Shown here in pieces: positions 5,732 through 64,000 of a stretch of DNA of 64,000 nt. Origin of the DNA: Nymphaea colorata (taxonomy: Eukaryota; Streptophyta; Magnoliopsida; Nymphaeales; Nymphaeaceae). The notes under the pieces are model-generated. The model made no database searches and had not been told where the DNA came from. It saw only the letters and a program-made list of their open reading frames with translations. How positions within the stretch are numbered: position 1 is the first letter of the stretch; each line of letters opens with the position of its first letter. Made by a program: the position numbers and the translations under genes. The stretch covers positions 16,718,854 to 16,782,853 of the forward strand of contig NC_045147.1 of assembly GCF_008831285.2 (NCBI RefSeq). Reading direction: 5' to 3'.

Positions 5732-8700
5732 GTACATGTTAGAACAACTAGAGAGCTTATTTCAAATTGCTAAGGATCATTGTTTTCTTCTTGAACTGGA
5801 GAACAAATAAAGTGTTCTCAAAAACAACAAAGTATAATAGACATATTATATTTTTCATGTTTTTTCCTACCCAGGAAATTTACTTTTGACATTTCTTCCA
5901 ATATTTTACAACTATTTTGGATTTTAACCAATGGTTTTGTAAGAAAATTAGTAGAGGTTCAAACTTATATAGCTTTTTATTTTTTTTAATTCTTTTTTGT
6001 CAAAATTTCGAGATTTTCTCCAAAAAAAGTATAACTATAAAGAAAATAAAAACCCTTCCATCTAACACCCAAGAAACATCTTGCCACCAAAAACCTGTAA
6101 ATGACAATAGTATAGATAATAGTATAGACATGCATCAGTGTGCAAGAATGCATCCATCGCATAGTCACAGACAATGTTCTTAGGTATCACGTGGCTAGGT
6201 TTTTCTTTTGAAATTTTCTTTCATGTGTCTTCCTCGGGAAAATCTCAGATATTTTACAAAATATTAAAAAATGTATGAACTTCTAGGTTTTTTTACTAAT
6301 TTTCATAGAACAGTATTGGTAAAGATTCAAAATAGGTTTTCTAAATTTAAAAAGGAAGAACGAAATACACAATAAGAGCCTACAAAAAAGGGTTTTTCAG
6401 ATAAAAGGAAAATTATTGCAATATTGTCGCAATATCATTTGGATATCTTGAAAATATTGTTATATTCTCCCAATAAAAATACACCTTTTTCTTTTGGCAA
6501 TAATATCATGGTATTTCAAAAACATTGTGGCACTTATAACAATGCTGTGAAGGTATGCATAAAACTCAAAATATAAAAATAAAATGGTGTAGATCATAGT
6601 GGTTTTTTAGTTCTACGTAGATGAAATATGTCACCATATTGTGCAAATTTGACATGTACAGTTATGATTTGAATGTATGGATAAGCCATGTGGACAGCCA
6701 AACCAGTAAGTAACTCCAACACATATGTTATCAAGGCGAGAATAAAGTTCAATATTTTTATGCATGGAGGTTCAAATATTTGATCAGTTCGAAATATGTA
6801 TAATACGTGCAGACACACATCCACACATATATGGGGAGAAAAAGAGAGAGAGAGTCTGATAAATCCAACTAAAGTAATCTCTTAACAGGGATCTTATCCT
6901 TGAAACTGTTTTTGGTTGTAAAAGAAAATTTTTAAATAATAAACTCTCAAATAAGGCATGTTACCCATGTTGCACTACCAAGCACTGTGAAAACGTGAAT
7001 ATATCTACCTAAAATTACAGCACTCCAGTTTTCCCTAAAACACACCATCTTGTAGGTAACAGAAGTCTTTAGATTACCTTTTCGTGGAAATCATTGATAC
7101 AGTTACTAACGAGGCTGAGGGACTTATAAACAGACATTAGGTATTATCCTATAACCAAGAACAGGAGCATCGGAGCTAAAAATTTGAATCCCTTTTTCAA
7201 GTAAAACCAATGAAATTCATTATGCAAGTACCCAAAAAGAAAGCACAGGCAGAGACGTCAACTACAATAAATACATATATTACTTTCAAATGTGGACATA
7301 TGAACTTGGTTTTAGCTCATCTGTTCATCAAGCACGATAATCCATGTCACTGTTTTGCATTGTCACATACAATACCTCTGAGCTCATCTGTTTCTTCTTT
7401 TCTTTCTCGTTCTGATGCCAATCATAGATCGGGGTAAAATCACATAGCTCAAATTTTTTGATTTTGTGATTCTTTCCAAGTATAGCTCTCCAATCGTTCA
7501 TGAAATTTTCAATAAATGTCTTTTTTGTTGCATATTCTGTATCTTTCATCACAGCAAACATCGTTGCAACCTGTAAAATTTTAAGGGAAATGATTAGGGG
7601 TTCTCTATATTAATCAGAACTACAGAAAACATTAAAAATAATAAATAAATCTGTAACACCTGAATACAGAAGTAGAAAGCACTGGAAAGAGACAATGAGT
7701 AGATGTAGGTGATACCGTTAATAGTTAAGCATACCTCCTCCTGTTCAGGAGTCAAATCAACTGGTTCTCCATTATAAAGCATCTTTACACCATGAGGCTT
7801 ATATGGAGGGGGGAATATCACCCCATTGTGTTCCAAGGTAGTCCATTTCTTGCCGCCGCCTGACCCTGGTGGAACTTTTGCAGACTTACCATACTGCGAT
7901 TTGGAATTCTTCAATGTCTTCTTAAGTTTTTTTGTTGATTTTTTTATTGAAGTTGCCACTTTTGCTGGAGCCTTTTTAGCAAGGGAATTATTACCATCTG
8001 CAACTGATTTCTTCATCCCTTTTGCAATAGGATGATAGTCTTCATCATCAAATGATTCTCTTGGTTCTCTCTTAACCCCAGTTTCTACTTTAACCTTGGC
8101 TGGTAAAGAGATACTAGATGTTTTTGCCTTCTTAGCTGAAGGAACACTAGAAGACCTATTGGCTTCATCTAATGGCCTCTTCTTCATATCACTGTTTGCT
8201 TTTGAAGTCAGTTGACCATTTAGGCCTCTGCCAGAACCATTTTGCTGCAATTTATAAGACAAAGGCTTTTTGTCTTCTTCATCTGAGTCTATCTCAGGTT
8301 TAATAGAAATGCCAGCAGAATTTGAAGGCTTTACTGCTGCTCTCAGAGCCAATGGTTTATCGTCTTCAGAATCTTCTGATGAGGCTGTTGGACTTATTTT
8401 TTCCTTTTTCAAGTCAATCAAGTTTTCTGGCTTAGGTTTAGTAACTACCTTGGTAAGCATTGTTCTTCTGAAATTCAATGGCCTATCATCATCTGAATCA
8501 TCAGAATCGATACTTGGTGCATTTGAAGGCCTGCTCAAAACCTTCGTCTTATTGGCTTGACTTGATGACTGATTTGCATCTGATCGAGAAGACACAAGAG
8601 AAGACGCCTGTGAAGTTGCAGGAAACAGCTTCTTCACCACTACTTTTGTGGATGACACACCTTTATCTGCCTGCAAATTTGAGTTTTGAGCACTAGGAGC

Positions 8701-8865
8701 CCGTATATCAGTGGTAGGCTTTTTCAGTGGTGGCCGACTCACCAATGGATCCAACTGTTTTGTTTTGGAGGATATGCTGCCTCTTCTGAATGTCAAAGGA
8801 CGATCATCATCATCATCACTGCTTTCAATTAACTGACGCTTAGCAGGTTCGTGAACAGCCATCAT
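1..8865 (-). CDS. TOP1: DNA topoisomerase I, 5' part (C-terminus beyond window)
   Basis: Type IB topoisomerase: in the nucleus it nicks one DNA strand and lets it rotate, removing supercoils ahead of polymerases. Ten coding exons read through in one consistent frame with GT-AG introns: 8865-7735, 7570-7376, 5588-5508, 2423-2364, 2266-2172, 2091-1935, 1818-1690, 672-592, 481-391 and 306-173, giving 718 codons. Residues 1-340 are a charged, low-complexity nuclear tail with repeated acidic DDRPL-type motifs. The core begins near [21 protein letters not shown] and includes [66 protein letters not shown] (which holds a catalytic-pocket Arg) and [17 protein letters not shown]. The linker and the C-terminal domain with the active-site Tyr are missing because the window ends. 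The start chosen is the first Met ([11 protein letters not shown]); the second Met is equally possible. All exons match the family closely and no frameshift is seen, so I read it as a functional gene. Confidence 0.95.
2424..5507 (-). other. Large TOP1 intron between exons 3 and 4
   Basis: This 3.1-kb stretch lies between the exon ending NGVKEK and the exon starting [10 protein letters not shown]. It is AT-rich and holds a long (TA)n tract at about 3555-3593 and a shorter one near 5336-5356. I see no exon-like coding or recognisable element in it. Other TOP1 introns over 300 bp (673-1689, 5589-7375) are likewise plain AT-rich DNA; the latter has a (CA)n/(TA)n tract at about 5690-5731. Confidence 0.8.
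3555..3593. repeat. (TA)n microsatellite
   Basis: About 20 uninterrupted TA units inside a TOP1 intron. Likely polymorphic in length. Confidence 0.95.
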
Positions 8866-10950
8866 TCCACGTCTCTATGTTTCAAACTGGCAGTGGCAAG
8901 CACAGATTACCATCTGCATCAATAATATATAAGAAACATCAAATGAAGAAATAAAAAAGGCTTAGAGGCTCACATAGCATATAAGATCAGGTAACTGAAA
9001 AGGCCAAACATCAAAGAAACCAATTCCCAGATAGGAGAAGCAGGAAGCTGAGAAAGAAAAAAGGACACAAAAGAAAATGTTAACATCTTCCAGCACAGTT
9101 ATGATAGCAAATGCAATAATTTAGCTTCCTTGTGTCCACCACTCAAATGTCCAGAATACAAATCCTTGAAATTTTTGACAATGTTACTTATTAGTGAGTT
9201 TAGAAGATCATGAAATACCCATATTTGATTTATTCTTATTTATTTTGAAGTAAACAGCGGAATACCAACCTAAGGTAAAGGGACGAATTGGTTGAATGAT
9301 CCCCTTGATTTAACCATAAACACAGGTGGCAAACGATGGCCCTGAAAAGAAGATTACCAAATTATGGAAAAGACCAAAACATTAGGACGATCGATTGAAG
9401 ATCTGGCTTATGAAACACCCTAAAACCTGGTTTCTGTATCTGAATGATGGCATCTTTGCCTGAAGGTAGCTTGACATCCAAAGAATACGTTTGGACTTTG
9501 GAGTGTGTCTATGTGTTTTTGCACATTTGTGAATATCTCACTTTGAAGATTATGCAAATTCAAAAGGATAACAGGGTGAATATCTGTTTTATGGAAGGCC
9601 TCAAAAGCCTGGTTTTCCTATTTGGATGATAGCATGTTCTTTCTCTGCTCGTCGAGTTTCACAATTTTTCTCCAGATTAAGTTATAACATGTAACTTCTA
9701 GTGATTACAATAATTTGCCTACAGATACACAATAGGACTAAGGTTATTCAGTGAAGAATTAAAAAGTCCTTCACAATCTAGCCCACTACCACTCAAATTC
9801 GAATGAGATTTGCAATAGCATGCATACATCAGCAACAGTACCTATTTTTGTATCTTTGTTTCTTATTTAAGAAGAATTGACAGTGATGTTAAATTGCCAT
9901 CATCGCCAACAAGAGAAACGCCACAAAACAATCACCATCTTAGCGAACTGTAATATTTGTAAAAGGCAAAACAAGAAGTACAAAAAGAAGTTCTTCAGAT
10001 CATTTGACCAAGAAAAACCAGTTATTTTCGGGTGAATTCCAACCCCCATGCAAACCTCTAATTGGTGCCAGCAATGGTCAAGAAAACTAGCAATGCCATC
10101 AAATAACAAAAGAAATAAGGCCGAAAAAGATAGCAACTGTTAGGGATTCGAGAAATCACAGAACAACAATTCCATCGTAATTCCATTTGTTTATCATCTT
10201 ACATCAAACGTCAAAGCAACTACCAAATTGAGACGATAGAAGATCGATAATCACTTGTCACAAAATTTAGGTTAAAAACGCCAAATTAAATGGAAATCTA
10301 GAAATAAACAGAGAGAAGGGAATGGGCAAAAGCAGCTGCCGCATGTCCCATCTTCCGACCAGCAATAGAGAGAATAAGAGGATAATCAGGTAAATGGGGT
10401 TGCATCCTGGCCCCTTCTCGGCCAGAGAGAGAGAAAGAGACACAGAAGCAGGTCAAGGAGCTGCTGCCCACCCACTTCCGACCAGCTGAAAAAGAGGTAG
10501 ATGGCGGTAAAGAAGCTCCCTTTCAGGCCTCTTCCGAGAGAGGGGAGGAGAGGGAGAAAGAGAGAGCACCTGCGGCAGAGACGTTGAGACGCCGGCGCCG
10601 GATATTGGATGCTAGAGGGAAAGTCCGGCCGGCGCCGGACGGCGGTCGAGGGAAAAACTAGGGCACGCAGGGGCAAAAGGGTATTGCAAGACTGGAGAGA
10701 GGAAGGGAGGGAGGGAGGAGGTGGGGAGGAAAGAGAAAAGAGGGAGAGGGAGGAGGTGGGGGGGAGGTGTTGTGGTGTGGGGGCAGAACGGGAGGAGGAG
10801 GGGGTGGGGGATGGGGAGGGTCCGGCCAATATACCGGGTTCTCGATGGGCTCAGAGAACCACATCTCAGACCCGGATTTCCAAATCCAAACCGAGACCCG
10901 GTTGAGGCTGAGCAAAGGGCCCACAGTGTCTCGAATCGTCTCACCTGAGC
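8866..10950. promoter_or_regulatory. TOP1 upstream region and probable 5' leader
   Basis: No ORF here resembles a protein. The part from about 8,866 to 10,300 is AT-rich. From 10,320 to 10,950 the composition switches to GC-rich, with purine runs on the plus strand (pyrimidine runs on the TOP1 coding strand), as is common in plant core promoters and leaders. By inference, the TOP1 transcript begins near 10.3-10.7 kb and a leader intron brings it to the ATG at 8865. An acceptor-like ...CTGCCAG lies about 25 bases before that ATG on the minus strand. Transcript data would be needed to fix the start. Confidence 0.45.
10700..10822 (+). other. G-rich, quadruplex-prone tract upstream of TOP1
   Basis: A purine-rich run with many G3-G7 blocks (GGGAGGGAGG, GGTGGGGGGG, GTGGGGGATGGGGAGGG), closely spaced. 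Four or more G-runs fall inside 30-base windows several times, so the plus strand can form intramolecular G-quadruplexes and the minus strand is a pyrimidine tract. For TOP1, transcribed leftwards, the G-rich strand is the template. Confidence 0.6.
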
Positions 10951-42856: not shown

Positions 42857-43346
42857 TTCCATTTTCATTATAATTGAAAATCTCTTCTTAGTAGGGTAGA
42901 TATGAGGTTGGACAGATCTATGTCACATCATGTTAAGGGCTATCACAAGCTTCAAACCCAAATTTAAATTTTGGTTTTTGAGGTCTCCCCTCCTCCCTAA
43001 TTCTAGGTTAGGTGGAGGATTACGGGAATCCGAAAAGAAAAAAAAGAGACAAAAAAGTAAGTGAAAGAAAAAGTGTGAAAAAACCATTTCTAAAAGCCAT
43101 TCCTCGATAAAAAGCATTCAACAGCGAGTTTCATTTTCAAGTGGTTTTACCATCATGTTTATGATTTATCTAATAGACTAAAATACTATTGAAACTTATA
43201 AAGAAAAGTACTTTTGAAATATGTAGACGAAATTTTATAGTATTTAGAAATCAATGGTCTGAACCTTTTTGTTTTTGCTTCTAACCCCGCTTTGTTTTTG
43301 CTTCTAACTCCGTTGGACTTGGGTTTGGTTTCTATAGACAAGTGGA
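42857..43346. repeat. 0.5-kb direct repeat, copy 1
   Basis: Nearly identical, in the same orientation, to 52,603-53,110. It begins TTCCATTTTCATTATAATTG and ends TTTCTATAGACAAGTGGA. Copy 1 carries a small internal tandem duplication of TTTGTTTTTGCTTCTAAC. I see no LTR hallmarks (TG...CA ends, primer-binding site), so the family is unknown. Confidence 0.8.
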
Positions 43347-43810: not shown

Positions 43811-43958
43811 TGTTAACGATAAGGTTGAAAGACAACCATTTAGAGATATTAAAGGAAAGAATGTCAGCAAGATCAATCAAAATAAATGATAAAGGAAAAA
43901 AAACCTTTCCACAAAAATTAGATTTAGTTTTCCATGTTCATCGTTGCCAAGATTATAG
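43811..43958 (+). mobile_element. Extra truncated LTR head of the TRIM, in tandem
   Basis: The first 148 bp of the LTR (TGTTAACGATAAGGTTGAAA through CCAAGATTATAG). It ends exactly where the next, longer LTR begins with TGTTAACGATAAGATTG. This places a partial LTR directly upstream of the 5' LTR, probably by unequal recombination or a nested insertion. Confidence 0.7.
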
Positions 43959-44775
43959 TGTTAACGATAAGATTGAAAGACAACTGTTCTAGAGAAATTC
44001 AAGGAAAGAATCCTAGCAAGATCAATCAAAATTAGTGATGAAGAAAAAATAAAATCTTTCCACAAAAATCAGATTTAGTTTCTCATGTTTATCATTGTCA
44101 AGATTATAGAAACTTCAACTATTTAAACTTGTTTTATGCATTGTATAACCAAGGCTCATGGTGGCCTTCCATGGTGAAAAACTATGCATGTTTAATGAAA
44201 AGAATTTTTTCAATGCTGGTTTTTATTTGTTTTGCTTCTTCTTTATTTTTTTAACTTGATATCAGAGCAGGATGTTTGACGAAGAAGAATGAAGCCCATA
44301 AGTGGCCTATAGACGATCAAATACATCATTGCCTTCTTCCCCAAAGCGAAGACTCGATCCTGTGAAGAAAATCTTGAGGATTCAAACTTGGGTTTTCTGA
44401 ATCGCTGCCAAAGCACGATACCTTCACAAAAAACATCATAAAGTAAATTTGGGCTCACCAGCATGATCACCTTTTACAATGTTCTTTAACAAACTTAGAC
44501 TTTTAAATCCATTGTCCAGTTTGAGGGAGGATGTTAACAATAAGGTTGAAAGGCAACTGTTATAGAGAGATTGAAGGAAAGAGTCCCAGCAAGATCAATC
44601 AAAATTATTGATAAAAGAAAAAAAAAAATCTTTCCACAAAAATCAGATTTAATTTCCTATATTTATCATTGCCAAGATTATAGTTCAACTATTTAAGCTC
44701 GTTATGCATTGTGTAATCCAAGCTCATTGTAGCCTTCCATGGTGAAAAACCATGCATGTTTAATGAAAAGACATT
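43959..44775 (+). mobile_element. TRIM, small non-autonomous copia-like LTR element
   Basis: The 5' LTR starts TGTTAACGATAAG at 43,959 and runs to about 44,250. A primer-binding-site-like TTGATATCAGAGCAG (initiator-Met-tRNA type, consensus TGGTATCAGAGC) follows at about 44,256-44,270. The internal region is only about 260 bp and has no gag or pol. A polypurine tract TTTGAGGGAGGA abuts the 3' LTR, which starts TGTTAACAATAAGG at 44,532. The 3' LTR matches to about 44,770 and is then cut off. Short LTRs, PBS, PPT and no coding together are the signature of a terminal-repeat retrotransposon in miniature, which depends on proteins from an autonomous element. Confidence 0.8.
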
Positions 44776-46395: not shown

Positions 46396-47231
46396 TAAGG
46401 CTGGGCGTCGGGCCGGGCCGCCGCCGGCTCGGTATGGGCCGGGAAAATCCTGGCCCGAGCCGGACCCGGGCCCGACAAGCCGGCCCAGCGGCGGCCCGGT
46501 CGGCCCGACTACGGGCTGTCTTCCCGTCTCCCTCCCCCTTCCCCCCTTGCCCGACAACGACCCCCTTGCCCGACAACGATGGCTAGGAAGAAGGCAATGA
46601 CGGACGAGAAGCGGAACCGGAGGCCCAGGGAGAGGCCAAGGAAGCGGACGAGGCAGGGGATTAACCTGAAGCAAGACGAGGCGGCGGCTCTGCTCTCCTC
46701 CATCGCCAACTGCATCGTCTCCGTCTCTACCTGCTGCGGCGCTGCCCTCCCAGACGGCCTCTCTGTACTCCTTTCTCCGCTCCAGCGTCGTCCTCGTCAC
46801 CCACCTCCATTCCCTCTTCTCCTTACCCGATCGCCTCTCCGTCTCGCGCCTCCCTCTCCCTCTCTGCTCTCCCTGCTCCTCTCCCCCTCCTTCCTCCTCC
46901 TCTCCCTTCCGGTCTCCCTCTCAGTCTCCTATCTCCATTCCCGTCTCCCTCCTCTCCCTCTCTGCTCTCCCTACTCCTTCCTCCTCCTCTCCCTCTCCCT
47001 CTCCCTCTCTGCTCTCCCTGCTCCTCTCCCCCTCCTTCCTCCTCCTCTCCCTCTCTGCTCTCCCTGCTCCTCTCCCCCTCCTTCCTCCTCCTCTCCCTTC
47101 CAGTCTCCCTCTCAGTCTCCAATCTCCATTCCCGTCTCCCTCCTCCTCTCCCTCTCAGCTCCCTCCTCTCCCTTCCCCTCTCTGTTCTCCCTCCTCGCAG
47201 GCGGGCCGGCCCGGCCCGATACCCACCCCTA
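46396..47231. mobile_element. hAT-type non-autonomous element with 8-bp target duplication
   Basis: The 836-bp GC-rich block is flanked by a perfect 8-bp direct repeat CTTTGAAC (46,388-46,395 and 47,232-47,239). Its ends are inverted: left TAAGGCTGGGCGTCGGGCCG, and right, read inward, TAGGGGTGGGTATCGGGCCG. They match at 21 of 25 positions. An 8-bp duplication with TAGGGGTGGG-like ends is typical of the hAT superfamily. There is no transposase. The interior contains an open stretch from 46,579 (MARKKAMTDEKRNRR...) that could be captured gene sequence, followed by a long CTCTCCCTC-type pyrimidine array. Confidence 0.85.
46790..47190. repeat. Homopyrimidine (CTCCCT)n-type tandem array inside the hAT element
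   Basis: About 400 bp of almost pure C and T on the plus strand, with repeated blocks such as CTCTCTGCTCTCCCTGCTCC and TCTCCCCCTCCTTCCTCCTC. The long open frames through it on both strands (S/L/P-rich and E/R/G-rich) come from composition and are not genes. Confidence 0.85.
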
Positions 47232-49707: not shown

Positions 49708-50575
49708 GAAGCAGAAGAAGCAAAGAGGGTCACGCCTCTCCGACAGGCATCCAGGGAGGGGGAAGGCCTGGCCTCGATCGAAAAAAAGGGACGCCGGAAG
49801 CAGCCAACTGATTGGTTGCGTGCAGGAGCGGCTGGGTTCCCTCCTCCTAGACTCACAGGCTCCACCAAATCCAAAAGCAGGTCTTACTGAGCCTTCTTCC
49901 ATTTGTTTTGGCACAGTTGCAGTTGGCCCTCTGCATCAAGGATAAGTGGATCCATGAAAGACTTCAGTTTAGGGCATGGTTGGTAATCCGGTTACACCAA
50001 CAACAATCGGTTTAAGCTTTGGTCACTAGCTTCAGGAATAGATTCGATCACTCGGCCGGGCTCAATCATAAATTGTTACGAGTCCTTTTTGTCCAAATGC
50101 ACTTCTACTTCTTTGAAGGAGACGTATGAGCGCCGGAGGGTAAGCCAGCATTCATATGCTTCCGTAACGTAAGAAGAAGGGTGAAAAGTTGAACGGGAAG
50201 GAAGACGGTGAGAAGTGAAATTGTTCATCCGGGCATCCGCGGCCCCACCGGAACTGGAACAGAGAGAGAGAGAGAGAGAGGTGAAGAGGTTAGGCTACTT
50301 GTGAATGAAAAACAAAAGAGAAGCTGATGATGCAACCAAGACATTCTTTCCCCTTGCAATGGAAAAAAAAATGTCTTCACCAAAATCTATCGTTTTACTT
50401 AGGGTTGGGCATGGGGCAGGTCCCATTGACTTGTAAAAAATTGGCGATTGTTTGTGAACACAAGTAAGCAGTGGTGGAGATACATAGGGGGCATGCACAC
50501 ACCATATGTGATCTTGTTACTCAAGTGCCCCTAAAAAAAAAACCTTAGATCCACTACTACTGCTGCTATGAGGAC
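48916..50575. other. Spacer with (CT)n(CA)n tract and a GA tract
   Basis: No gene. A long (CT)n followed by (CA)n lies at about 49,648-49,706, and a (GA)n at about 50,263-50,280. Just left of the palindrome, 50,468-50,563 is bounded by CAGTGGTGGAGATAC and an inverted TAGATCCACTACTACTG and may be a tiny MITE. Confidence 0.5.
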
Positions 50576-50798
50576 TAGAATACGTAAGTCTGGAACAATA
50601 TCGAATAGAGAGGGCCTTCTTAATTTAAAGTAGACCTCACTTTGCCAAACCCTCAAGCAAAAAAAAAAAAGAAAGGCCTTCTTAGAGCAATATGGGTTTG
50701 TTGTGAAAACTCTAAAGCCCTACTGCTAATTGAGCCTCTTAAAAATCCTTTTGGTTCTCGAATGGAAGATTTTTCGGGCCAGACCCGGTCCACTAAGT

Positions 50799-50804
50799 TG
50801 GGCC
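50799..50804 (+). promoter_or_regulatory. Site II-like element TGGGCC upstream of QCR8 fragment (arm A)
   Basis: TGGGCC lies 139 bp before the QCR8-like ATG, and the mirrored GGCCCA occurs in the right arm near 52,355. TGGGCC/T site II elements are common in promoters of plant respiratory-chain genes. This suggests that the captured piece includes promoter sequence, but one hexamer is weak evidence. Confidence 0.3.
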
Positions 50805-50942
50805 GATGGCGGCGACCCAGAAGAATGGGAGCCGACTATAAGAAGAAGCAATTGAGAGAGAGGACCAGTGAAGAGGAAGTGAAGGCAGGGCGGGGACTCA
50901 CAGGGGAATCAGGAGTAGAGCAGAGGGAGACAGGGGAGCGAG

Positions 50943-51107
50943 ATGGGGAAGACGCCGGTGAGGATGAAGGCGGTGATATACGCGTTGTCGCCGTTCCAGC
51001 AGAAGGTGATGAGCGGCCTGTGGAATAGTGGAAGGAGCACCACTCTCCTTCTTACCCCTCTCGTTGGCACCTACTCGCAATCTCCCCCTCGCAATCTCCC
51101 CCCTTAA
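50943..51107 (+). pseudogene. QCR8: QCR8 fragment, arm A (54-codon open frame)
   Basis: QCR8 is the small ubiquinone-binding subunit 8 of mitochondrial complex III, about 72 residues in plants. This frame starts MGKTPVRMKAVIYALSPFQQ, then KVMSGLW, which matches the N-terminus of the family. It then jumps to NSGRSTTLLLTPLVGTYSQ, which matches the later membrane segment (family SATLLxTPxVGTY). The segment between (family KDLPxKIHHKVSEN) is missing, as is the C-terminal KEQEKLEHRF-like tail; the frame ends in simple sequence. An in-frame internal deletion therefore leaves an open but truncated reading. It is probably not a working subunit. Confidence 0.8.
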
Positions 51108-51269
51108 CGCTGATCTTTTGTTTTTGGCCCGCCGGCTTGTTGTTTCAGATCTCCTTGTGGTTTTGTTTCATCTTTTTTTCTTTTAGAATTCATTTTGTTT
51201 ACGGAAATACTAGTTTAAGAAACTGCCCTCGAGAAGAATGTCTCCAGAAATGGATCAGCGCCTACTCGT

Positions 51270-51416
51270 AACAATGGTGCATTATGCTGCACTGAGGAAT
51301 TCATCAATCTGAGGACGGGAAAGGGCCCTGAGACCCTTCCCTTCAGGAAAGATGGAAGGCTTGCAAAAAACGATCTCAAGACGCTTCTCATAACCTTCGA
51401 AGCCGATTGCAGCCAT
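51270..51416 (-). pseudogene. SAMDC: S-adenosylmethionine decarboxylase N-terminal fragment in the palindrome loop
   Basis: AdoMetDC makes decarboxylated SAM for spermidine and spermine synthesis. The minus strand from 51,416 reads [17 protein letters not shown], then [22 protein letters not shown], a stop, and CTIV. This is the N-terminus of plant AdoMetDC proenzyme; the family has a Glu codon before CTIV, so one base change made the stop. The fragment ends at the junction with the left arm. The autocatalytic cleavage site and the rest of the roughly 350-residue enzyme are absent. The sequence above the ATG up to 51,534 may be leader from the same gene; it stays open ([17 protein letters not shown]) but has no domain. 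Confidence 0.85.
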
Positions 51417-51624
51417 TTTTTGCAGCGGAGCAAGTTCTGAACGAGGAGGTATGTCCAGCGGGTGTTGCAAAGGACCAGGAAAGAAGGAGAGAAGGGAAAA
51501 GAAAGAGGGTATCCGTTCCGGCCGAGGAAGACAAGTTACGAGTAGGCGCTGATCCATTTCTGGAGACATTCTTCTCGAGGGCAGTTTCTTAAACTAGTAT
51601 TTGCGTAAACAAAAGGAATTTTAA

Positions 51625-51989
51625 CGTTTTGTTTGGTTGGAGGGAAGGGAAGGGAAGGGAATGGAAAGAGTTAGATTAAAAGGTTTGTTTGGATAGAAAG
51701 GGAAGGGAAAGGAATGAGATTGAAAAAAAGACTAAATAGCACATGGATTTAGAAAAGAGGTAAAGAAAATGAGGGGTAGCTTGAGAATAAAAAACTCTTC
51801 CACTTACCTTTCTTTCCTTTCCTTTTCAATCCGTTCGATTTGAGAGGGAAGAAATTTACACTAGACAATCCCTTCATTTTCTTTCCTTTCTTTTTCTTTT
51901 CCTTGTAGCCAAATACATTTTGCTCATTTCCCTCGTCAACCAAACAAAGGAGTGGTTGCTCAATCCCTCCCTTTCCCTCCTACCAAACA
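51625..51989. mobile_element. Tourist/Harbinger-like MITE inserted in the right palindrome arm
   Basis: A 365-bp insertion absent from the matching place in the left arm. TAA flanks both sides (51,622-51,624 and 51,990-51,992), while the left arm has a single TAA there (about 51,185, reversed), so the arm itself serves as the empty site. The ends are inverted: GTTTGGTTGGAGGGAAGGG on the left and GTTTGGTAGGAGGGAAAGGG read inward on the right. Much of the interior is also complementary (GGGAAGGG / CCTTTCC runs). A TAA duplication, small size and no coding fit PIF/Harbinger-type MITEs. The left end has about five extra bases before the shared terminal motif. Confidence 0.75.
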
Positions 51990-52067
51990 TAAAAGAGAAA
52001 AAGATGAAACAAAACCGCAAGAAGATTTGAAACAACAAGCGAGCGGGCCAAAAACAAAAGATTAGCG

Positions 52068-52217
52068 TTAAGGGGGAGATTGCGAGTAGGTGCCAACGAG
52101 AGGGGTAAGAAGGAGAGTGGCGCTCCTTCCACTGTTCCACAGGCCGCTCATCACCTTCTGTTGGAACTGCGACAACGCGTATATCACCGCCTTCATCCTC
52201 ACCGGCGTCTTCCCCAT
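52068..52217 (-). pseudogene. QCR8: QCR8 fragment, arm B (49-codon open frame)
   Basis: Mirror copy of the arm A fragment. It reads MGKTPVRMKAVIYALSQFQQ, KVMSGLW, then NSGRSATLLLTPLVGTYSQ, SPP and a stop. It has the same internal deletion, so the deletion predates the inverted duplication. Two substitutions separate it from arm A: Q for P in the FQQK block, which is off consensus, and A for T in SATLLL, which matches the family. Each arm has thus gained changes of its own. It faces arm A across the loop. Confidence 0.8.
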
Positions 52218-52602
52218 CTCACTCCCCTGTCTCCCTCCGCTCTACTCCTAATTCCCCTGCGAGTCCCCGCCCTGCCTTCGCTTCCTCTTCACTGATCCTC
52301 TCTCAATTGCTTCTTCTTATAGTTGGCTCCCATTCTTCTGGGTTGCTGCCATCGGCCCAACTTAGTGGATCGGGTCTGGCCCGAAAAAATCTTCCATCCG
52401 AGAATCAAAAGGGTTTTAAGAGGCTCAACTGGCAGTAGGGCTTTAGAGTTTCCACAACAAACCCATATTGCTCTAAGAAAGGCCCTTTTCTTTTTTTTGC
52501 TTGAGGGTTGGCAAAGTGAGGTCTACTTTAAATTTACAAGGCCTTTTCTGTTCGAAATTGTTTCAGACATACGTATTCTAACAGACATACACCATACAAG
52601 CA

Positions 52603-53110
52603 TTCCATTTTCATTATAATTGAAAATCTCTTCTTACTAGGGTGGATATGAGGCTGGACAGATCTATGTCATGCCATGTTAAGAGCTAGCACAAGCTTCA
52701 AAGTTCAAACCCAAATTTAAATTTTGGTTTTTGAGGTCTCCCCTCTCCCTAATTCTAGGTTAGGTGGATATCCAAAAGAAAAAAAGAGACAAAAAAGTAA
52801 GTGAAAGAAAAAGTAAAAAAAAAAAAAAAGAGTGTGAAAAAACCATTTCTAAAAGCCATTCCTCGATAAAAAGCATTCGACGGCGAGTTTCATTTTCAAG
52901 TGGTTTTGCCATCATGTTTATGATTTATCTAATAGGCTAAAAATACTATTGAAACTTGTAAAGAAAAGTACTTCTCAAATATGTAGACGAAATTTTATAG
53001 TATTTATTTAGAAATCAATGGTCTGAACCTTTTTGTTTTTGCTTCTAACCCCGCTGGACTTGGGTTTGGTTTCTATGTCCATACCCATTTCATAAGCGTA
53101 GACAAGTGGA
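52603..53110. repeat. 0.5-kb direct repeat, copy 2
   Basis: Same orientation as 42,857-43,346 and starting only about 22 bp beyond the palindrome. It carries a longer poly-A run in the middle and about 29 extra bases (GTCCATACCCATTTCATAAG...) near the end, which copy 1 lacks. Confidence 0.8.
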
Positions 53111-62200: not shown

Positions 62201-63733
62201 TGCAGGGATGCTCCAAATGCTTCTTGACACAGATTTGGATTCAACTCAGAAGGACTATGTTCGAACTGCACAGGCCAGTGGCAAGGCATTGATAACTTTG
62301 ATAAATGAAGTGCTTGACAGGGCAAAAATTGAGTCTGGAAAATTAGAACTTGAGGCTGTGCCATTCAACCTACGATCAATTCTAGATGACATTCTTTCTT
62401 TATTTTCGGGAAAATCTCGAAATAAAGGCATTGAGGTATGCCTTATAATCATTCATAACGGCACAGGATCATGTTCGTTTCAGTATGTCTAACCTAACAA
62501 AAATGGATATGAGCTGAACGTGGTAGATTTGACTATACAATGTTAACTACATATTCTTGTGGCCTGGGGTACCGTTCCTGATTTTAGTTTTGCCTTTGTG
62601 GTTGCGAACAGTTCCAATATTGTTTCTCTTTTGCTTGGTTACCTGAGATTTCTGAACTTAACGCACCATAGCACATAAATTGATAAATATAGCCTCCTGG
62701 TTTTGTATCATAAATTAATTGTTCATATTCATTTTTTGTATCATTTTTTAATCTGTACATATAATTCCTCTTTGTTAATTTATCATTCCTGACATTTTCT
62801 GCTTGCTTATGCTCCTTGTATCAATGACAAATTGTAGCTAGGAGTATTCGTATCCGACAAGGTTCCAGAACTTCTAATTGGTGATCCTGGAAGATTCCGG
62901 CAGATAATCACCAATCTTGTTGGAAACTCGGTGAAAGTATGTTCCTCTCTCATTCCTGATCTCTACCTGAAGGCTGAATTTATCTTTATATATTTCATTG
63001 TGATAATGCTATTGCAGTTTACTGAGCGCGGCCATATCTTTGTTCGAGTGCATCTTGTGGAACATGCTAAATTATTGGTTGATACTAGAGTTGATGCTAG
63101 TGCAAAAGGATCTCCAACTGATTTGGCTGTTTCAACTGGCAATGTTTTCAATACCTTAAGTGGATATGAAGCTTCTGATGACAGCAATAGTTGGGATAAA
63201 TTCAAATTGTTGTTTTCAGACTCTGTGCCTTTGTCTGACAAAGTGGCAGAGTGTGTGGCTGCGACTTCTATATCTGACAATGTTGCCTTGATGGTTAGCG
63301 TGGAAGATACGGGCATTGGAATTCCCTTGCCTGCCCAAGATCGTGTCTTCATGCCTTTCATGCAAGCTGACAGTTCAACATCACGGACATATGGTGGTAC
63401 TGGGATTGGACTGAGCATCAGCAAATGCCTAGTTGAGCTGATGGGTGGGAAAATAAATTTCATCAGTCGGCCGCATATTGGAAGCACCTTTACTTTTACT
63501 GTTGTTGTGCGCAAATGTGATAAATTATTATTAACTGACCGGAAGATGCATCTTTCTGAGACACTACCTATGTGCTTCAAAGGTATGAAAGCTATTATAG
63601 TTGATGGCAGACCTGTCAGAGCAGCTGTAACAAAATACCATCTTCAAAGGCTTGGTATGTCTGTTGAGGTTGTGAGCTGCATGAAAATGGCAATTCGAGT
63701 CATCTCTACACAAAATGGATATGCTAGAAACGG
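59201..63733 (+). CDS. AHK4: Cytokinin receptor hybrid histidine kinase, AHK4/CRE1 type (3' part beyond window)
   Basis: A membrane histidine kinase that binds cytokinin through an extracytosolic CHASE domain and feeds the His-Asp phosphorelay to type-B response regulators. Exons: 59201-59593, 59683-59916, 60018-60187, 61475-61693, 61776-61962, 62070-62121, 62206-62435, 62838-62936 and 63018-63733, giving 766 residues so far. TM1 is at about 55-76. The CHASE domain includes FERPLLSGVAYAQRV, PIQDEYAPAIFSQET and KAVLTSPFKLLE, whose T227 corresponds to the Thr altered in Arabidopsis wol. TM2 is at about 345-368. The H box is ATVSHEIRTPMNG (H408), the N box ITNLVGNSVK, G1 VEDTGIGIP, F FMPFMQADSSTSR and G2 GTGIGLSI. 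A degenerate receiver-like segment begins (KGMKAIIVDGRPVRAAV). The main receiver domain with the phospho-Asp lies past the window. AFERPLLSGVAYA and YLGGAFDVESLVENLL fit AHK4 better than AHK2/3. The start at 59,201 is the first Met in frame; other N-termini are possible. Confidence 0.94.
60188..61474 (+). other. Largest resolved intron of the cytokinin receptor gene
   Basis: It separates ...IEATVG from YLGGAFDVES, with donor GTGAGT and acceptor GATTAG. AT-rich; no element or coding recognised. Confidence 0.85.
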
Positions 63734-64000
63734 GTATGTTTTCTGCCATCGTTTTGTGGGTTTTTTAGCTTAATTTTCTTATTATTCTGGTCATGCTGTG
63801 AACTTTTCCTCCTTTTTTTCATCAGAATAACTGATTTCATTTTCCTGAAAATATTTTTTCACTGTGAATCTTAATGTCCAATGTGCTTTTGTTAATAAAT
63901 AACTAGGTTGCAATGTTGTATTGGGAAAATTATTAAAAAGTGGAGTTACAACAGTCCTGGTTCTCGTGGTTTGTATGTGATAACCTTGTACTGTGTGCCA
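63734..64000 (+). other. Start of the next receptor intron
   Basis: After RNG|GTATGT the remaining 267 bases show no continuation of the receiver domain, so the next exon lies beyond the window. Confidence 0.7.

Follow-up and report, generated by a model that had tools for sequence, protein, structure and literature searches.

The Mu killer locus of maize, said to have been described by Slotkin et al. in 2005, is reportedly an inverted duplication of transposon sequence whose read-through RNA is a hairpin that acts on MuDR, and SULF is likewise said to be a small-RNA locus with an effect on petal colour. In Populus, Y-linked inverted partial copies of the host gene ARR17 lie apart from the intact gene and are capable of forming a hairpin, and 24-nt siRNAs are reported to methylate the promoter of the intact gene (PMC9636151). 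Inverted copies of pieces of target genes are also the raw material in the inverted-duplication model for young plant MIRNA genes (PMC3237417), as they could be at the locus described here, and Pack-MULEs are described as carrying gene fragments between long terminal inverted repeats, with promoters held in the repeats of Mutator elements (PMC3310237, PMC1947982).

We have examined a palindromic locus of Nymphaea colorata that joins pieces of two host genes, QCR8 and AdoMetDC, and that lies within a window of 64,000 nucleotides (the whole stretch of DNA that was analysed, to which all positions given without a contig name refer). The window occupies C10:16718854–16782853 of an assembly of 407,766,735 bases in 783 contigs, and the palindrome C10:16769429–16771433. 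Elsewhere in the window, Pfam identifies exon-like frames of DNA topoisomerase I on the minus strand (38–358 and 7597–8874) and of a CRE1/AHK4-type receptor kinase on the plus strand (62838–63770); there is a CT-rich tandem array of 46-nt and 58-nt units at 46834–47182, a 151-nt tandem repeat at 43811–44109 with another copy near 44532, and a repeat pair of 87% identity at 42857–43291 and 52603–53055, the latter member beginning about 20 nt beyond the right end of the palindrome. The sequence CAGACATAC occurs twice at the end of the right arm, at 52564–52572 (just inside) and at 52582–52590 (just outside).

The palindrome spans positions 50576–52580, with a left arm at 50576–51272 (plus strand), a loop of 262 bases at 51273–51534 that carries a piece of AdoMetDC on the minus strand, and a right arm at 51535–52580 (minus strand). 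The left arm comprises a QCR8 promoter, an exon 1 with a deletion, the start of intron 1 and a second scrap of exon 1; the right arm is the same unit inverted, and is the longer of the two because a 365-nt MITE sits within it. When aligned, the arms are identical at 636 of 676 bases (94.1%, with 40 mismatches) and form a stem with seven perfect runs of 22–68 bp, counting runs of at least 21 nt. QCR8-like frames face inward in both arms, at 50943–51107 on the plus strand and at 52068–52217 on the minus strand, and both are matched by the Pfam family Cyt_b-c1_8 (E values of 5.6e-14 and 1.3e-12, respectively). The preliminary description of this DNA had reported two long inverted arms with the same inward QCR8 frame and an AdoMetDC N-terminus in the loop, with which both the arm alignment and the Pfam matches agree; the MITE at 51625–51989 is an addition to it. 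For comparison, we used BLAST to search for inverted pairs with arms of at least 80 nt lying within 4 kb of each other in 264,000 bases of the same genome, made up of the window and 20 random 10-kb stretches from five contigs (5,629 of these bases being N). No pair other than the palindrome exceeded 77% identity, and the two others found in the 264,000 bases were of 423 nt at 73.5% (L030) and of 100 nt at 77% (L042).

A genome search with the left arm as query returns its own sequence, the right arm split in two, and a single place on contig C13, and the QCR8 protein of Nymphaea colorata matches at least four places, these being exons 1 and 2 of a single C13 gene and the two arms. We thus found one intact QCR8 gene, close enough in sequence to match 21-mers of the arms, and no further copy in the assembly, the match counts being lower bounds. 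The gene has an exon 1 of 57 codons, an intron of 6.7 kb and an exon 2 ending in EKLEHRY. Genome matches place the left arm colinear with this locus from 50618 to 51200 on the plus strand (arm positions 43–625), that is, from about 306 nt upstream of the ATG to about 130 nt inside intron 1, and the right arm over a nearly equal extent at 51990–52536 on the minus strand. The exon-1 copies within these stretches, at 50943–51077 (plus strand) and 52083–52217 (minus strand), share a 36-nt in-frame deletion and a splice donor changed from GT to GC, with codons 1–27 and 40–57 retained in the left copy according to tblastn; because the missing residues are present in the other plant QCR8 proteins compared, the deletion arose in the arms. 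At the inner end of each arm is a displaced second scrap of exon 1, internally deleted and abutting the AdoMetDC piece, at 51229–51272 on the plus strand (BLAST match 51229–51262) and at 51535–51578 on the minus strand (BLAST match 51545–51578). We considered and ruled out two other views of these copies, namely that they derive from a spliced (retroposed) QCR8 transcript, since exon 1 is followed by intron-1 sequence in both arms, and that the inner scrap is QCR8 exon 2, since it proves to be another piece of the 57-codon exon 1.

The loop, read on the minus strand, matches Pfam SAM_decarbox (E value 1.5e-6) and the PDB chain 1mhm_B (E value 2e-11). It contains AdoMetDC upstream sequence at 51417–51534, identified by genome match, followed by a coding start of 48 codons with its ATG at 51416; two codons are missing and there is a stop at codon 45 of the copy. 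All 262 bases align with C3:24711251–24711518 at 92% identity, and it is there that the intact SAMDC gene anticipated by the preliminary description, alongside that of QCR8, is found. This source gene has a 395-codon open frame from the ATG that matches the one in the loop, and upstream of it is a further frame that resembles the short upstream frame typical of AdoMetDC leaders in plants. In all, the loop query matches six places in the genome, which are the loop itself, the source gene and four in AdoMetDC relatives. A second gene-derived inverted repeat is present at C1:21051652–21051989 and 21052590–21052935 (L015, L016, L017), in which AdoMetDC pieces stand head to head in arms of about 346 nt with 94.5% identity, one arm running on into a pseudogene with a frameshift; of the genes found, an AdoMetDC relative near C3:24669824 is the closest, with identities of 96.5% and 95.1% to the arms.

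The insert in the right arm is short, multicopy and bounded by imperfect terminal inverted repeats, as is characteristic of a MITE; a genome search gave 319 candidate places, 40 of which were scored, and a TTA-type duplication flanking the insert is suggested but not proven. One relative lies at C13:17494509–17494866, roughly 5 kb away from the start codon of intact QCR8. As the MITE is present in one arm only, it was inserted after the duplication. At 520 sites that can be compared in both arms and the gene, there are 33 differences shared by the arms, 12 private to the left arm, 19 private to the right arm and two three-way differences, and the Jukes-Cantor distances are 0.066 between the arms and 0.096 and 0.112 between the arms and the gene. 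The shared deletion and shared differences suggest either that an already altered QCR8 copy was later duplicated, or alternatively that the arms have been homogenised since, and part of the 33 shared differences may be changes on the side of the QCR8 gene. If plants accumulate neutral changes at 6.5e-9 per site and year, a value whose validity for water lilies is uncertain, the age of the arms would be around 5 million years. At each end of the loop about three extra bases match the AdoMetDC source, an overlap that suggests microhomology at the joins. Judged from its sequence, the locus looks like a one-off chimeric inverted duplication of pseudogene pieces, in which an altered QCR8 copy would have been doubled in inverted order around a scrap of AdoMetDC, with the joins made through template switching or end joining and not by a transposase.

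A motif search shows that promoter-like motifs are retained in both arms, with TGGGCC at 50799 and TATAAG at 50837 in the left arm (50799–50842, plus strand), and TGGGCC starting at 52359 and TATAAG at 52321 in the right arm (minus strand). TATAAG lies at −106 relative to the ATG in the left arm, −104 in the right arm and −96 in the gene, and the corresponding positions are −144, −142 and −133 for TGGGCC, which we take to be the site II element of respiratory genes. A modelled plus-strand RNA from 50841 to 52600 (1,760 nt) has a predicted folding energy of −1053 kcal/mol, far beyond that of 25 dinucleotide shuffles (mean −542, sd 12; z −44), and 410 of its 679 pairs span more than 300 nt. The preliminary description had proposed that read-through from either captured upstream region would yield a long hairpin RNA; its geometry and the retention of the upstream regions are upheld by the arms and the predicted fold, and the read-through transcription stays a prediction. 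Between 50943 and 52580 the plus strand has a single AATAAA, located in the MITE at 51786, which could end a plus-strand RNA early; in the model, an RNA terminated shortly past this point would nonetheless retain 87 pairs of the 90-bp inner stem. In the minus strand, AATGAA is the sole such signal found, with one occurrence at 51878 and another at 51194.

We favour the interpretation that the palindrome is a hairpin pseudogene which silences itself and barely affects QCR8, over both an inert pseudogene and an active silencer, and put its probability at roughly one half. Under this interpretation, inward transcription from either retained QCR8 promoter would give a long hairpin RNA, or from both promoters convergent RNA; the RNA would in either case be diced mainly to 24-nt siRNAs, with the result that the locus methylates itself and is largely shut, and the intact QCR8 gene would experience at most a weak or tissue-limited effect, AdoMetDC not being expected as a regular target. 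The anatomy of the arms relative to QCR8, the conserved promoter motifs, the long stable hairpin and a skew of arm-private C-to-T changes towards CG and CHG are all consistent with it, and self-silencing appears most likely when the single QCR8 gene, the behaviour of hairpin RNA transgenes and the marks of decay and methylation are taken together. Such transgenes reportedly acquire methylation in both the repeat and the neighbouring promoter, and are hence self-silenced (PMC9263138). Mismatched hairpin transgenes are reported to be less self-silencing (PMC9263138); those constructs were far more mismatched (for example, at 1 in 4 positions) than the 6% seen here.

The substitution pattern was examined by polarising arm-private changes with the QCR8 gene as outgroup and pooling C-to-T changes over either strand, in tests that were picked post hoc and have small counts, and in which the shared class is unpolarised and includes gene-branch changes under selection. 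C-to-T changes make up 19 of the 31 arm-private changes, with 9/108 per site-copy in CG, 5/76 in CHG and 5/340 in CHH contexts (Fisher p 0.0008, CG plus CHG versus CHH). The share in CG or CHG is 14 of 19, as against 92 of 262 for background sites (p 0.001) and 1 of 6 in the unpolarised shared class (p 0.023). Read from gene to arm, the shared differences include C-to-T changes in 0 CG, 1 CHG and 5 CHH contexts, and T-to-C changes in 1, 1 and 9, respectively; transitions account for 26 of 31 private versus 17 of 33 shared differences (p 0.008). The ratio of observed to expected CpG is 0.66 in each arm and 0.79 in the gene stretch. Loss at CHG is indicative of silencing-type rather than gene-body methylation. 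The pattern suggests germ-line methylation of the entire locus following the inversion, but does not show that this was caused by a hairpin.

It is on this last point that an alternative must be weighed, namely that the palindrome is an inert chimeric pseudogene, without read-through RNA or siRNAs of its own, and methylated merely as intergenic DNA beside repeats. Plant intergenic DNA is often methylated at CG and CHG whether a hairpin is present or not, and a lean like that of the arms is seen in the unpaired loop, where 4 of 5 C-to-T changes (unpolarised) are in CG or CHG; this speaks for an inert locus and against self-silencing. The same count is 3 of 4 in the second AdoMetDC palindrome on C1 and 2 of 5 in the C1 pseudogene stretch outside its arms. 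An inert state would also accord with the signs of decay, including the exon deletion, the changed donor, the stop codon in AdoMetDC and the one-arm MITE with its AATAAA, and with the position of the repeat that adjoins the palindrome from 52603 and has a second copy in the window. However, both TATAAG and TGGGCC are kept in both promoter copies, and the seven perfect runs remain in the stem, and we regard this explanation as rather unlikely, if a serious one.

We are more doubtful of the idea, put forward in the preliminary description, that the locus is an active trans-silencer whose 21–24-nt siRNAs would direct cleavage of QCR8 mRNA or methylation of the QCR8 promoter. The sequence matches that it needs are present: among 677 left-arm 21-mers, 42 match the approximate QCR8 mRNA exactly, 51 with one mismatch and 16 with two, and the corresponding numbers among 1026 right-arm 21-mers are 22, 54 and 36, whereas all 700 of 700 control 21-mers have at least six mismatches. 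A homologous gene close enough to be targeted, as supposed in that description, is thus available, and 52 left-arm and 17 right-arm 24-mers are exact in the QCR8 stretch from promoter to intron 1. Precedents in which partial inverted copies are linked to the silencing of other genes are provided by ARR17 in poplar (PMC9636151) and by SULF and YUP (PMC12371187). Arguing against active silencing are the arm-to-gene identities (473/520 and 466/520 aligned sites), the possible early 3′ end within the MITE, and a substitution pattern suggestive of past methylation at the locus itself. Furthermore, complex III requires QCR8, and strong silencing of the one QCR8 gene found in the assembly should be harmful. 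The further claim that siRNAs would act on both genes does not hold as stated, because AdoMetDC lies unpaired in the loop and dicing of the stem would give no AdoMetDC siRNAs; these would need convergent transcription or RDR copying. The AdoMetDC piece would be antisense in a plus-strand RNA and sense in one read from the minus strand. If convergent or RDR-copied RNA were made, AdoMetDC could be matched, 38 of 242 loop 21-mers being exact in the intact source stretch.

We think it improbable that the locus is a self-tuned silencer, feeding back negatively on a complex III gene present in one copy via siRNAs against exon 1 and the promoter, although since each arm has a copy of the QCR8 promoter, the output of hairpin RNA would be expected to track QCR8 transcription.

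A non-autonomous TIR transposon of the Pack-MULE type, with QCR8 captured in the inverted repeats and AdoMetDC between them, is very unlikely. Such an element might account for the outermost 42 nt of the left arm (50576–50617, plus strand) and 44 nt of the right arm, which are unmatched in the QCR8 flank, for the TA at both edges, and for the captured fragments of two host genes, QCR8 and AdoMetDC, which are typical of Pack-MULEs. However, the 28-nt terminal core (50578–50605 on the plus strand, and 52551–52578 in the right arm on the minus strand) is found at the two arm ends only in a search of the 407.8 Mb genome allowing up to three mismatches, and no other genomic copy of the arm was found besides QCR8, suggesting that this is a single rearranged locus and not a member of a transposon family. 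Target-site duplications of MULE and hAT elements are 8–10 bp, and there is no direct repeat of at least 8 bp between 50501–50590 and 52566–52660, although a TA duplication would fit the edges; the flanks share the 7-mer TATGAGG, which is 67 nt off on the right. We therefore reject the transposon on its termini, flanks and copy number. A MIRNA gene was similarly rejected, as 0 of 4227 Rfam families match the window at gathering score.

PacBio-type reads can create false inverted repeats. PacBio data underlie the published N. colorata assembly (PMC7015852), which counts for an assembly artefact from a chimeric long read, but we dismiss this as extremely improbable because the arms are mismatched at 40 of 676 sites, the 365-nt MITE is confined to one of them, and the AdoMetDC piece in the loop has changes of its own and a source on another contig.

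The palindrome is of interest as a natural hairpin-capable locus in an early-branching flowering plant, for which the intact source genes have been identified, one of these being a housekeeping gene that was found once in the genome. It offers a clear test case of an inverted duplication that threatens an indispensable gene, where the outcome may be self-silencing, tolerance or regulation, and the contrast between substitutions from before and after the inversion provides a sequence-only probe for past methylation at such loci.

We noticed no description of the locus among the titles listed in literature searches, a weak test in which most titles listed in one search lacked Nymphaea and those in another lacked QCR8. 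Among known systems, Mu killer reportedly has a similar geometry, but its source is said to be a transposon, whereas that of the palindrome is a host gene. As with ARR17, the palindrome has partial, inverted host-gene copies located away from the intact gene, but it differs in having a housekeeping gene as its candidate target and a piece of a second gene in the loop, and small RNAs and sex-linked methylation are reported for ARR17 (PMC9636151) whereas the palindrome is known from DNA alone. The same distinction applies to SULF of Antirrhinum and YUP of Mimulus, which are described as small-RNA loci with an effect on petal colour (PMC12371187). With arms of about 700 nt and no Rfam family at gathering score, the palindrome is unlike a young MIRNA gene, and it departs from Pack-MULEs in having neither a terminal-repeat family nor a target-site duplication of at least 8 bp. 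Its paired gene-piece copies lie close together and there is an intact gene with matching 21–24-mers, as in an inverted-repeat siRNA locus; at the level of DNA, and by analogy, it is thus an inverted duplication derived from a gene, the type that supplies small-RNA loci like ARR17, SULF and YUP.
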